Positions 4,965 to 8,000 of a stretch of 64,000 nucleotides of DNA are shown here, in pieces (position 1 is the first letter of the stretch; every line of letters begins with the position of its first letter). The notes below the pieces were generated by a model. It saw only the letters and a list, made by a program, of their open reading frames with translations, did not search any database and had not been told where the DNA came from. Origin of the DNA: Sphingobacterium allocomposti (GTDB taxonomy: Bacteria; Bacteroidota; Bacteroidia; Sphingobacteriales; Sphingobacteriaceae); assembly GCF_008124885.1 (NCBI RefSeq), contig NZ_VNHX01000019.1, forward strand, positions 1-64,000, in the 5' to 3' direction. The position numbers and the translations under genes are program-made.

Positions 4965-5295
4965 CGACAGACAGCCTATTTAATGCTCCCGTTGTCGGCA
5001 CATCTTTGTGAGCCCTGCCTGTCAGAAGCGTGGCAATACCACACGAGGGGCAGGAGTATCCGGTAGATCGAGCGGACATCGGCACTTACCCACGATGGTA
5101 TGTGCCGATGCTTCTATAGCTAGTCATTCAAGTGGTCAGACTGTCCTTCAATAAATTCAGAAGGATTGTCCAAACGGACTGTAGAAGAAAGTAGCCTTTT
5201 CACACATGAGCTCCTTTTCGATGATTTGCAAGTAAAACATACCATCTTTTTATTACCTTTGATGATAAGGATAATGATAACCAGCAATTTAAATT
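4965..5295. other. Intergenic region with a strong hairpin
   Basis: About 330 bases without a gene. CATCGGCAC (5077-5085) pairs perfectly with GTGCCGATG (5102-5110), and the loop adds a TAC/GTA pair. No T-tract follows, so this is a structured RNA end or stabilising hairpin rather than a classic terminator. A shorter GTGG/CCAC hairpin lies just upstream. The 3' part becomes AT-rich towards the next gene. Confidence 0.5.
5225..5261 (+). promoter_or_regulatory. Candidate promoter of the duplicated secreted-protein genes
   Basis: TACCTTTG at 5254-5261 matches the Bacteroidota -7 consensus TAnnTTTG exactly. The only TTTG upstream (5225-5228) is 25 bp away, which is longer than the usual spacing, so the -33 element is doubtful. 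The start codon follows 34 bp downstream. Confidence 0.45.
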
Positions 5296-5856
5296 ATGAA
5301 AAGGATTTCCTTTAGCGTAGCCATGGTAATATCTACATCTGTTATTTTTCATGGGAAGGCTCAAACCCAAAAAGTCGATAATTGTGATTTTTTTGATGCT
5401 GTAGTAAACAATCATAATCAGATCTTTCAGTATTCAGGGATTCCTTCAGCCGTTGAAGTGATTTTAAAATACTGTAAAGCAGTTTATTTTGACTATTACG
5501 ATTTGCAAAATGAATGGAAAAACAAAGCTGATGGTTCTTTTCGTGACTTTGACAATAAAGAACTATATGGTATTACCTTTTCTCAAAAATTTAATTTACC
5601 CCGGGATGCAAATTTTCCGATAGATAGTCTTTTTCAAACTATAGAAAATGAATTAAAATCTGGCAAAAAGGTAGTTATCGCTCTGCAGGTGGAGACGGGC
5701 TGGTCTATTTTTGTCGTCTATAAAGAAAGTCTGGATGGAGAATTCGTTTCATACAGCAAATATGGCAGCCATACAACAATAGTTAGAAATACAAAAGAAA
5801 TGGTGAGAAAGTCTAACGGTACGGAAATCATGACTTACACCACCCCTCGTTTGTAG
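5296..5856 (+). CDS. Secreted C39-peptidase-like protein, copy 1, catalytic residues lost
   Basis: A 186-residue protein with a signal peptide ending near KAQ23. It is the same length as the next gene and aligns without gaps, with a near-identical centre (FDYYDLQNEWKNKADGSFRD). The segment QIFQYSGIPSAVEVILKY resembles the active-site helix of C39-like cysteine peptidases (Q, six residues, Cys, x-Pro-x-Ala), but the Cys position is Gly48 here. The putative His position, GWH in the sister copy, is Ser137. If the fold assignment is right, this copy is a pseudoenzyme. The gene is AT-rich compared with the surrounding genes, which may indicate acquisition. The fold assignment is inferred from a short motif only. 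Confidence 0.7.
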   Translation: MKRISFSVAMVISTSVIFHGKAQTQKVDNCDFFDAVVNNHNQIFQYSGIPSAVEVILKYCKAVYFDYYDLQNEWKNKADGSFRDFDNKELYGITFSQKFNLPRDANFPIDSLFQTIENELKSGKKVVIALQVETGWSIFVVYKESLDGEFVSYSKYGSHTTIVRNTKEMVRKSNGTEIMTYTTPRL

Positions 5857-6001
5857 CGAGAGGACGCCTCTCTTACGGCACATTGGAACCTGTTGCTTTT
5901 CTTTCTAACAAAAAGTGATAGATATAGAAGTAAAAAAAAGCGAAATAAAGACGTCCTTTGTAAAAGCTGGACTGAAATAATAATCAAAAATTACCTAGGT
6001 T

Positions 6002-6562
6002 ATGAAAAAGCTGCTCTTTAGTTTAGCCATGTTAATATCCACGCCTGTTATTTTTCATTTGAAGGCCCAATCACAAGAAGTTGATAGTTGTTATTTTTTT
6101 GATACCGTCGTGAATAACCACAATCAAATCTTTCAATTGTCCTGTATTCCATCAGCTGTCGAAATGGTTCTAAAGTACTATAAAGTCGTAAAATTTGATT
6201 ATTACGATTTGCAAAATGAATGGAAAAACAAAGCCGATGGTTCTTTCCGCGACTTTGACAATAAGGAACTATACGGCTTTACTTTTTCTCAGCGGTTTGT
6301 TATGCCTCGGGATGCAAACTTTCCGATAGATAGTCTTTTTCAAACTATAGAAAACGAATTGAAGTCTGGTAAAAAGGTAATTATCTCACTTCCATCGGAC
6401 ACGGGCTGGCATATGTTCGTCGTCTGCAGACAAGCTCCGGACGGGGAGTTTGTTTCATACAGTAAGCTCGGAAGTCATACATTGATAGTTAGAAATACAA
6501 AAGAAATTGTAAGAATGGCTAACGGGACGGAAATCATGACCTATACCTCTCGTCGTCTGTAG
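6002..6562 (+). CDS. Secreted C39-peptidase-like protein, copy 2, putative Cys/His retained
   Basis: A 186-residue exported protein, paralogous to the gene 145 bp upstream. QIFQLSCIPSAVEMVLKYYK (42-61) fits the C39-type active-site helix: Gln42, then Cys48-x-Pro-x-Ala. GWHMFVV (135-141) could supply the His (His137). No convincing third catalytic Asp/Asn was found, so activity is not assured. No promoter of its own was seen, so it may be co-transcribed with copy 1. Alternative reading: an unrecognised secreted family whose resemblance to C39 is superficial. Confidence 0.72.
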   Translation: MKKLLFSLAMLISTPVIFHLKAQSQEVDSCYFFDTVVNNHNQIFQLSCIPSAVEMVLKYYKVVKFDYYDLQNEWKNKADGSFRDFDNKELYGFTFSQRFVMPRDANFPIDSLFQTIENELKSGKKVIISLPSDTGWHMFVVCRQAPDGEFVSYSKLGSHTLIVRNTKEIVRMANGTEIMTYTSRRL

Positions 6563-6727
6563 CTAAGGGGATACGCTCTTCTTGATAATCTGATAGCCTT
6601 GCATAGACCCTGGTCGATCGCTGATATTATAATAGGGTTCGAAATAGGTTTTAATTTTTCAATTTTCTGTTTAGGAGGTGGTTTTTATTTCTTTGCCAAC
6701 TCCTGTTGGAATTTGTATTGAGATTTC

Positions 6728-6899
6728 TTCGGGAGTTGTTCGAGACCTGTTCGAGTCTTGTTCGACTGGGCTTCGACAGCTGTTCGACTGCTCTTCGGCT
6801 GCGAGTCGAAGGACAGTCGAAGCTCTCCCGAAGGACAGTCGAAGCGCTGCCGAAGCTGTCCCGAATAGGAGTCGACGCCGCCTCGGAGCGTACCCGAAC
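6728..6899. repeat. 11-bp-phased TTCG/CGAA inverted repeat array
   Basis: TTCG occurs at 6728, 6739, 6750, 6761, 6772, 6783 and 6794, exactly 11 bp apart. CGAA (twice CGAC/CGGA) then occurs at 6807, 6818, 6829, 6840, 6851, 6862, 6873, 6884 and 6895, again exactly 11 bp apart. The unit is TTCGRN plus five variable bases on the left arm and its reverse complement on the right arm. The arms could pair as a long imperfect hairpin, or the phased sites could bind a protein on one face of the helix. The period is not a multiple of three, which argues against coding. Confidence 0.9.
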
Positions 6900-6991
6900 A
6901 GCACAACCGAATCGGATAAATTTCTACTCCACAGACCTCATATGCCTTCAGTAGGTTTTAAGTACTCCTTGAAGTACTGATGAAGTACTAT

Positions 6992-7010
6992 TTACGCAAC
7001 CGTTGCGTAA
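6992..7010. repeat. Perfect 9-bp palindrome between the two arrays
   Basis: TTACGCAAC (6992-7000) and GTTGCGTAA (7002-7010) are perfect inverted repeats around one base. Three GTAC sites (6962, 6974, 6985) lie just upstream at 12- and 11-bp spacing. It could be a protein-binding operator. Confidence 0.6.
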
Positions 7011-7031
7011 GCGAAAAAAGGTGCAGTTAGT

Positions 7032-7102
7032 GTACGGGGAGTGTACGGGGAGTGTACGGAAAAGGTACTAAAAAGGTACTAGAGAGGTACTACAAAGGTA
7101 CG
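7032..7102. repeat. 11-bp tandem GTAC array, seven units
   Basis: GTAC occurs at 7032, 7043, 7054, 7065, 7076, 7087 and 7098, exactly 11 bp apart. Each unit is GTAC followed by seven mostly purine bases (GGGGAGT, GGAAAAG, TAAAAAG, TAGAGAG and so on). An inverted unit (GTACCTTCCCC, 7119-7129) follows downstream. The phase matches that of the TTCG array 130 bp upstream although the core sequence differs. Confidence 0.9.
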
Positions 7103-7139
7103 GGCATGGCCTACGCTCGTACCTTCCCCGTATTTTTTT
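7095..7139 (+). terminator. Hairpin with T-run closing the GTAC array
   Basis: AAGGTACG (7095-7102) pairs perfectly with CGTACCTT (7118-7125), and seven T residues follow at 7133-7139. The 7-nt gap between stem and T-run is unusual, but the array offers alternative pairings with the CCCCGTA segment. It may isolate the ribosomal operon from upstream transcription. Confidence 0.5.
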
Positions 7140-7269
7140 GCCGGAACAGTCGTAAAGATATAATGTAATCGCGTGTAATGGACTACACTTTAACGTGGAA
7201 GAAGTCGAGGGTTTTTCCGAGTTACGATCTTTTGGAGAACATAAATAAAAAAAAATAATTAACTAATTG

Positions 7270-7300
7270 TTTGACAGTTATAAAAATGTTTGTACTTTTG
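7270..7300 (+). promoter_or_regulatory. Promoter of the S10/spc ribosomal operon
   Basis: TTTG at 7270-7273, a 19-bp spacer, then TACTTTTG at 7293-7300 fits the Bacteroidota housekeeping promoter exactly. Transcription would start near 7306, giving a leader of about 70 nt before rplC. Confidence 0.8.
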
Positions 7301-7301
7301 C

Positions 7302-7356
7302 AGTCCCTTATTGGGAAAAGTATGTCTTGAGCGAAGCCCTACTGCTTCGATGGACT
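7302..7356 (+). promoter_or_regulatory. Structured leader of rplC
   Basis: CGAAGC (7332-7337) and GCTTCG (7344-7349) form a perfect hairpin, enclosed by AGTCC (7302-7306) pairing with GGACT (7352-7356). The fold lies between promoter and start codon, where ribosomal protein operons often carry autoregulatory sites. Regulation by a ribosomal protein is inferred, not shown. The 5' strand of the outer stem lies at or just before the predicted start site. Confidence 0.4.
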
Positions 7357-7377
7357 TTAATTAATTTAATTTATAAC

Positions 7378-7995
7378 ATGTCAGGAATTATTGGTAAAAA
7401 AGTAGGAATGACCAGCCTGTTCGATGCGGAAGGGAAGAATATCCCTTGTACAGTAATTGAGGCTGGGCCGTGCGTGGTAACGCAGATACGTACGGTTGAA
7501 AAGGATGGCTATGCAGCTGTTCAGCTTGGCTATGATGATGCCAAAGAAAAGAACACTACGGCTCCTTTAAAAGGACACTTCGCAAAAGCGGGAGTGACTC
7601 CTAAGCGTAAGCTAGTTGAATTCAAAACTTTTGAAGATGAGAAACAACTAGGAGACATCGTGGATGTAACTATTTTTGCCGAAGGTGAGTATGTAGACGT
7701 AGTCGGTACTTCCAAAGGTAAAGGTTTCCAGGGTGTAATGAAGCGTCACGGATTTGGTGGTGTAGGTGGTGCGACTCACGGTCAGCACAACAGGCTACGT
7801 GCTCCAGGTTCATTAGGTGCTTCTTCTTGGCCTTCGCGTGTATTCAAAGGGATGCGCATGGCGGGCCGTACAGGTGGTGACAGGGTAAAAGTTCAAAACT
7901 TACAAGTGTTGAAAGTGTACGCTGAGCAAAACCTAATTGTTGTTAGTGGTTCCATTCCGGGAGCTAAGGGTTCATATGTAATCGTAGACAAATAG
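7378..7995 (+). CDS. rplC: 50S ribosomal protein L3
   Basis: A 205-residue uL3, which binds near the peptidyl-transferase entrance early in 50S assembly. It starts [16 protein letters not shown] and carries the [16 protein letters not shown] signature in its second half. An open frame extends upstream to 7267, but the promoter lies inside it, so the ATG at 7378 is the true start. It is the first gene of the operon; rpsJ (S10), which usually precedes it, is absent from the window. Confidence 0.97.
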
Positions 7996-8000
7996 TAGAG

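Follow-up and report, generated by a model that had tools for sequence, protein, structure and literature searches.

The window analysed here is a 64,000-nucleotide stretch of the Sphingobacterium allocomposti genome (contig NZ_VNHX01000019.1, positions 1 to 64,000), in which a composite of short phased repeats lies upstream of rplC, a gene with its own conserved promoter. The features of this region are:

6678-6980, plus strand: leader-frame remnant (100 aa) terminated by TGA, collinear with the open leader of copy C34 of the same genome
6707-7104, plus strand: probable orphan copy of the cassette (TTCG/CGAA arrays, GTAC motifs, palindrome and GTAC array), delimited by BLAST against copies in the same genome
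6728-6797, plus strand: TTCG arm, seven sites at 11-bp pitch, read from the sequence
6807-6898, minus strand: CGAA arm, nine sites in the same CpG register as the TTCG arm, read from the sequence
6962-6988, plus strand: three GTAC in AAGTACT context, spaced 12 and then 11 bp, read from the sequence
6991-7010, no strand assigned: palindrome TTTACGCAACCGTTGCGTAA, read from the sequence
7032-7101, plus strand: GTAC array, seven sites at 11-bp pitch with purine-rich spacers, read from the sequence
7248-7317, plus strand: conserved promoter region of rplC, lying beyond the cassette and also found in cassette-free relatives

Two tandem genes for 186-aa paralogues (5296-5856 and 6002-6562), with no Pfam match, lie directly upstream of the cassette, and a short 7/14-bp tandem repeat of TTCTCAC occurs at 250-336. 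The rpsJ motif RIRIKL was not found on the rplC strand up to 1.5 kb upstream of rplC in 30 loci (window 7378 and L435-L464; one with 575 bases only), so the operon seems to start at rplC.

The TTCG sites start at 6728, 6739, 6750, 6761, 6772, 6783 and 6794, exactly 11 bp apart, and the CpGs of the CGAA arm recur every 11 bp from 6807 to 6895; seven of these nine sites are exact CGAA, and the deviants read CGAC (6873) and CGGA (6884). The last TTCG and the first CGAA are 13 bp apart, a step that vanishes when the CpG step is taken as the site centre, since the 11-bp CpG register runs unbroken through the switch. Between 6730 and 6895, 16 of the 21 CpGs fall in this single register. An earlier note on this DNA, made from the letters alone, had described seven TTCG and nine CGAA-type sites with exact 11-bp phasing and a single switch of orientation, which the sequence confirms; the 4-base cores are separated by seven bases, not by the five it gave, and the repeat runs on to about 7104, past the end of its interval of 6728-6899. 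In BLAST comparisons, the window cassette is matched by copy C14 of the same genome at 85% identity over 398 bp and by copy C34 at 77.5% over 400 bp, the latter starting at 6727. The window copy is collinear with the C34 leader, lacks a leader start and has no TlpA or SusC gene behind it. Moreover, its triple-GTAC part is one base longer than that of the intact copy at C34, and the frame is therefore shifted into the TGA. The TTCG/CGAA array is most likely part of a decayed orphan copy of an operon-leader cassette, and the window copy would have descended from a leader rather than the leaders from dispersed copies.

A chance origin of the array was rejected on spacing controls. TTCGx4 at 11-bp spacing was found in 58 of 90 genus genomes (absent from 32) and in 3 of 59 others, compared with 2 of 90 and 2 of 59 at 10-bp spacing and 5 of 90 and 3 of 59 at 12-bp spacing. 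Within the S. allocomposti genome, TTCG-N7-TTCG-N7-TTCG gave 54 matches (30 + 24) against 3 + 0 for the backward pattern, and GTACN7x3 gave 66 against 0 for its backward control; the latter pattern is its own reverse complement, both strands yielding the same 66. The backward control GCTT at 11 bp, which is not independent because many units read GCTTCG, occurred in 22 of 90 genus genomes with at most seven matches each. Similar units occur in Parapedobacter, and less close ones in Daejeonella and Breznakibacter. A pattern scan of genome contigs returned at least 119 stretches, many of the rows being near-perfect tandem repeats from unrelated phyla, and a scan of viral contigs returned at least 120 arrays, 44 of those listed having all-different spacers. 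A phage or plasmid origin was considered and rejected, with no match in the phage or plasmid collection. Searching related genomes with the spaced pattern, as the earlier note had advised, thus revealed a dispersed family. Uniqueness to this strain, which the note took to speak against its regulatory or mobile-element reading, holds for the place, where none of the 29 relatives read has an array within 1 kb upstream of rplC, and not for the family.

Several further repeats were observed in these genomes. At three places in the S. allocomposti genome (L098, L100 and L101), a 10-bp-phased array around AAAGTCCGYC precedes the TTCG arrays, with 610 bp in common at 87% between L100 and L101. A common region rich in AAAATGTCC-like words precedes the GTAC arrays at L103, L106 and L108. 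Genome G038 carries a dispersed, self-inverted element of about 185 bp with 11-bp-phased TTCGGAC/TTCCACT units (L380-L384), probably a sister family, and long uninterrupted runs of the tetranucleotide GCTT, candidates for phase variation, are present in G015, G026, G071 and G084.

Among related arrays (135 pairs), the mismatch rate was 0.5-2.7% in the core and 15-27% at other positions, the core figure being lowered because the arrays were chosen by their cores. With that bias, the rates bear out the earlier view that it is the spaced core that is conserved. The unit consensus is TTCGRSWNNKS, with R/S/W/S at positions 5/6/7/11 in 1.00/0.92/0.98/1.00 of 50 units from named Sphingobacterium, 1.00/0.89/0.96/0.91 of 45 units from the S. 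allocomposti genome and 1.00/0.95/0.76/0.98 of 58 Parapedobacter units; it is weaker in 137 units of further genus relatives (0.92/0.76/0.81/0.89). The arms are convergent in 61 rows, which include overlapping fetches of identical loci, and divergent in three, and the junctions of Parapedobacter differ. Of the convergent junctions, 25 of 61 measure 13 bp and 16 more 13 + 11n.

In relatives and at one other place in the S. allocomposti genome, the composite makes up the in-frame 5' end of the gene that opens a TlpA/SusC/SusD operon. An intact cassette is preceded by an upstream ATG (often M..FY..G) and followed by the signal peptide, and these ORFs have a thioredoxin-like TlpA or a SusC (TonB plug) protein at their C-terminal end. 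In a sample of 41 arrays of at least four TTCG, seven lie in TlpA/SusC-labelled ORFs, all with at least 10 sites; the other 34, mostly short, lie outside such ORFs, so the leader is not the sole home of TTCG arrays. The window composite belongs with the leader-type arrays, not with the short ones elsewhere. Forty-eight loci were entered in the leader set. Loci with a short or absent ORF over the array (L396-L398, L400, L402, L403, L406, L408, L213 and L224) were left out as leaders, as were L386 (contig end), L404 (227 aa) and L401, L405 and L407 (short GTAC runs in other ORFs); duplicate rows of the same place are L363/L388/L218, L366/L412, L188/L385, L212/L413 and L109/L394, where L218 is from S. 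arenae (G013), L212 from S. gobiense (G050) and L188 from Sphingobacterium sp. SGR-19 (G041).

Read in the frame of the gene that follows, 20 leaders are free of stops as far as the last array, whereas each of the other frames contains 4-41. As open leaders had been picked for this set, a fairer test is a frame-agnostic search in which the C-terminal part of a single leader served as query. It matched 25 of the 90 genus genomes. At E below 1e-8 there were 24 matches, of which 21 fall in frames of 360 aa or more; the remaining three (L432, L434 and the C14 copy of S. allocomposti) have no intact in-frame TlpA/SusC gene. In the S. allocomposti genome, one of 12 matches falls within a long open frame, C34:242-1780, which comprises the leader and TlpA and has SusC behind it; the C14 copy lies upstream of a FecI-type gene. 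Of the 20 places taken, 17 are operon loci, and in every one of these the leader belongs to the first gene (11 TlpA-first and six SusC-first); where TlpA comes last in the operon (L416, L428 and L431), it has no such leader. L432 has a leader ORF of 142 aa not joined to a separate TlpA fragment of 145 aa, L434 has no TlpA/SusC label within the 9 kb taken, L430 is interrupted further along, and the open leader of L374 belongs to an ORF that ends at 343 aa without a TlpA match. A Bacteroidetes-type promoter match was found upstream of the leader ATG in one of 19 leaders checked.

The open frame carries no codon-usage signature. With a codon model built from the mature parts of the leader genes, the leaders scored -0.060 in frame, while the two shifted frames scored -0.057 and -0.080; frame 0 gave the best score in 9 of 20 leaders, and the mature parts reached +0.080 in frame. 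Substitutions within the leaders are distributed across all three codon positions; in one family, the linker and GTAC parts show a mild excess at the third position. Of 611 indels counted across 53 leader pairs, 415 have lengths not divisible by 3, a count affected by noisy gap placement, and the clearest pair (L387/L388) shows indels of -4, +4, +1 and -1. Pfam matches of the scanned ORFs are confined to the mature part, with none in the leader, and an AlphaFold2 model of the leader from 11 sequences had a mean pLDDT of 42. Some residues of the linker and GTAC part are kept in all 11 aligned leaders, which together with the third-position excess leaves room for some peptide constraint. Regarding a conserved coding gene in relatives, which the earlier note also took to speak against its reading, the composite does lie inside an ORF there, in a frame without a codon-usage signature. 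As the leader is stop-free yet lacks that signature, a function at the DNA or RNA level inside a translated leader appears likely. The reading that we tentatively prefer, with somewhat less than even confidence, is a protein-docking array inside a translated operon leader.

Other readings of the leader were weighed against the docking array. If the array instead encoded a functional 11-residue repeat peptide, the open frame, the kept residues and the same 11-residue pattern in every frame would be accounted for; this is very improbable, because the unit constraints hold although successive units fall in different frames, there is neither a marked codon-position bias nor a coding codon score, and the leader has no Pfam match and a model of low pLDDT. 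We give equally little credence to a phase-variation switch, in which gain or loss of 11-bp units, a length that is not a multiple of 3, would toggle the frame of the first gene. Such a switch is consistent with the unit length within the open frame, with unit numbers that vary between homologues, with the many indels that are not multiples of 3 and with the unjoined leader and TlpA fragment of L432. However, none of the 24 strong frame-agnostic matches is an intact operon with an out-of-frame leader, the kind of variant expected of a phase-variation tract, and slippage is disfavoured because the units are degenerate. An RNA element, in which the TTCG and CGAA arms of the leader transcript would form a hairpin controlling translation or termination, is improbable as well. 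The pitch of an A-form helix is 11 bp, and the predominance of the convergent order, with its frequent 13-bp junction, is consistent with such a hairpin, as are apex stems that are fully Watson-Crick in 9 of 30 junctions (a count without a control) and fold z-scores of -3.5 as RNA (6720-6912) and -4.2 as DNA (6720-7145). Inverted cores by themselves can give such z-scores by lowering the folding energy. Spacers of the two arms paired at 2.56 of 7 positions, versus 2.50 when the same locus was read in a wrong register and 2.58 for spacers from different loci (30 junctions, of which three tandem-repeat loci outside the family supplied six), which is not above chance, and sliding one arm by 11 bp gave about the same pairing as the true register. 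The ladder-like hairpin that the earlier note had offered as an option therefore fails, and a long hairpin was rejected; the folding that it proposed did give low z-scores, without arm pairing beyond chance. An Rfam search of window 5000-8000 gave no match up to E 1. The two arms look like one oriented site on opposite strands rather than a maintained hairpin.

The main rival to the docking array is block exchange, which we consider unlikely at roughly one chance in four. Here, a cassette that moves or recombines (RPE-like, or acting as a crossover block) would be exchanged between operons with the arrays as exchange substrate, and the open frame would only keep the host gene intact, the peptide being removed with the signal peptide. 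In Sphingobacterium sp. SGR-19, a TlpA-first and a SusC-first leader are 92% identical over 675 bp, in a common block that starts no more than about one base from the first TTCG and stops near the end of the signal peptide, while the flanks of the two operons have no BLAST match to each other. The shared stretch likewise starts near the array in two pairs of G034 and in G013. Such sharing suggests that the block was duplicated, moved or spread by gene conversion. Further copies in the S. allocomposti genome, the many short arrays outside leaders and the rplC locus also fit a mobile cassette: no array lies within 1 kb upstream of rplC in the 29 relatives read (35 searched; 28 loci with 1.5 kb upstream and one with 575 bases), the array of L461 being at about -1089 relative to rplC. 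On the same count (0 of 29), a role of the array as regulator of the rplC operon was rejected. Against a mobile cassette, the in-frame copies among the strong matches are all on first genes of TlpA/SusC operons (17 of 17), and homology reaches beyond the block in G058, G047, G007 and a third pair of G034, so the block border is not universal.

Repeats of the REP, BIME and MITE type are short dispersed inverted structures between genes. The cassette differs from them in consisting of degenerate sites phased at one turn rather than a conserved hairpin, and complementary arms kept by covariation, a feature of REP and BIME, were not found in its arms. Rickettsia palindromic elements (RPEs) are described as dispersed repeats that occur outside genes and in frame within ORFs (PMC10969869). 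The cassette homologues likewise occur both in frame inside ORFs and outside; unlike RPEs in assorted genes, in-frame copies are seen at one position of one kind of operon only (17 of 17), and the block spans about 400-675 bp, versus a palindrome of about 150 bp in RPEs, with arms unpaired beyond the cores. The parC centromere of plasmid R1 consists of arrays of 11-bp repeats, of which ParR needs at least two (PMC9426499). The cassette is also an array of direct repeats of about 11 bp, but it lies on chromosomal contigs, is dispersed, sits inside leaders and has two different cores; moreover, no Pfam match to parM or parR was found among 46 window, neighbour and leader proteins. In Bacteroides fragilis, recombination by shufflons (Tsr0667) occurs at SusC/SusD gene clusters (PMC4747536). 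A shufflon is a segment inverted locally by a site-specific recombinase; the copies of the cassette lie far apart or on different contigs. Neither the RPEs nor the parC centromere agrees with the cassette in all defining features. No description of the element or of a named family was found in the literature covered, which included few subscription papers; together with the Rfam result, this agrees with the earlier statement that no named element is known to have this phased-array form.

For the docking array, we propose that the upstream ATG of an intact leader is used and the leader is translated, and that an oligomerising DNA-binding protein would dock on the arrays at one site per helical turn. 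The protein-binding option of the earlier note, one site per turn, is thus retained as the best reading of the array, with the protein itself putative. With 10.5 bp per turn in relaxed B-DNA, 16 sites at a pitch of 11.0 bp would not stay on one face of the helix unless the DNA were wrapped. This putative protein may control, or less likely recombine, the TlpA/SusC/SusD operons. The frame would have to stay open because ribosomes would need to read through the leader to reach the signal peptide; cleavage of the signal peptide would then remove the leader peptide as well. Two helix-turn-helix matches, one below the curated cut-off (L418) and one above it (L427), were obtained from six upstream ORFs of leader operons and are candidates at most. 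The window copy would have no expected role for rplC, beyond possibly still binding the docking protein. That the cassette represents a new kind of element, namely a translated non-coding leader with phased, switching arrays for one oligomeric protein, exchange of the block between unrelated surface-uptake genes and selection for the absence of stops rather than for an amino-acid sequence, is possible but rather doubtful. If the proposal is true, the uptake operons of Sphingobacterium begin with a translated stretch that doubles as a DNA rail for protein docking, and the leader array would offer a defined DNA bait for finding the binding protein. The docking block would be common to non-homologous genes, its reading frame would be kept open without being kept as protein, and gene finders would annotate the leader as a long, odd N-terminus.
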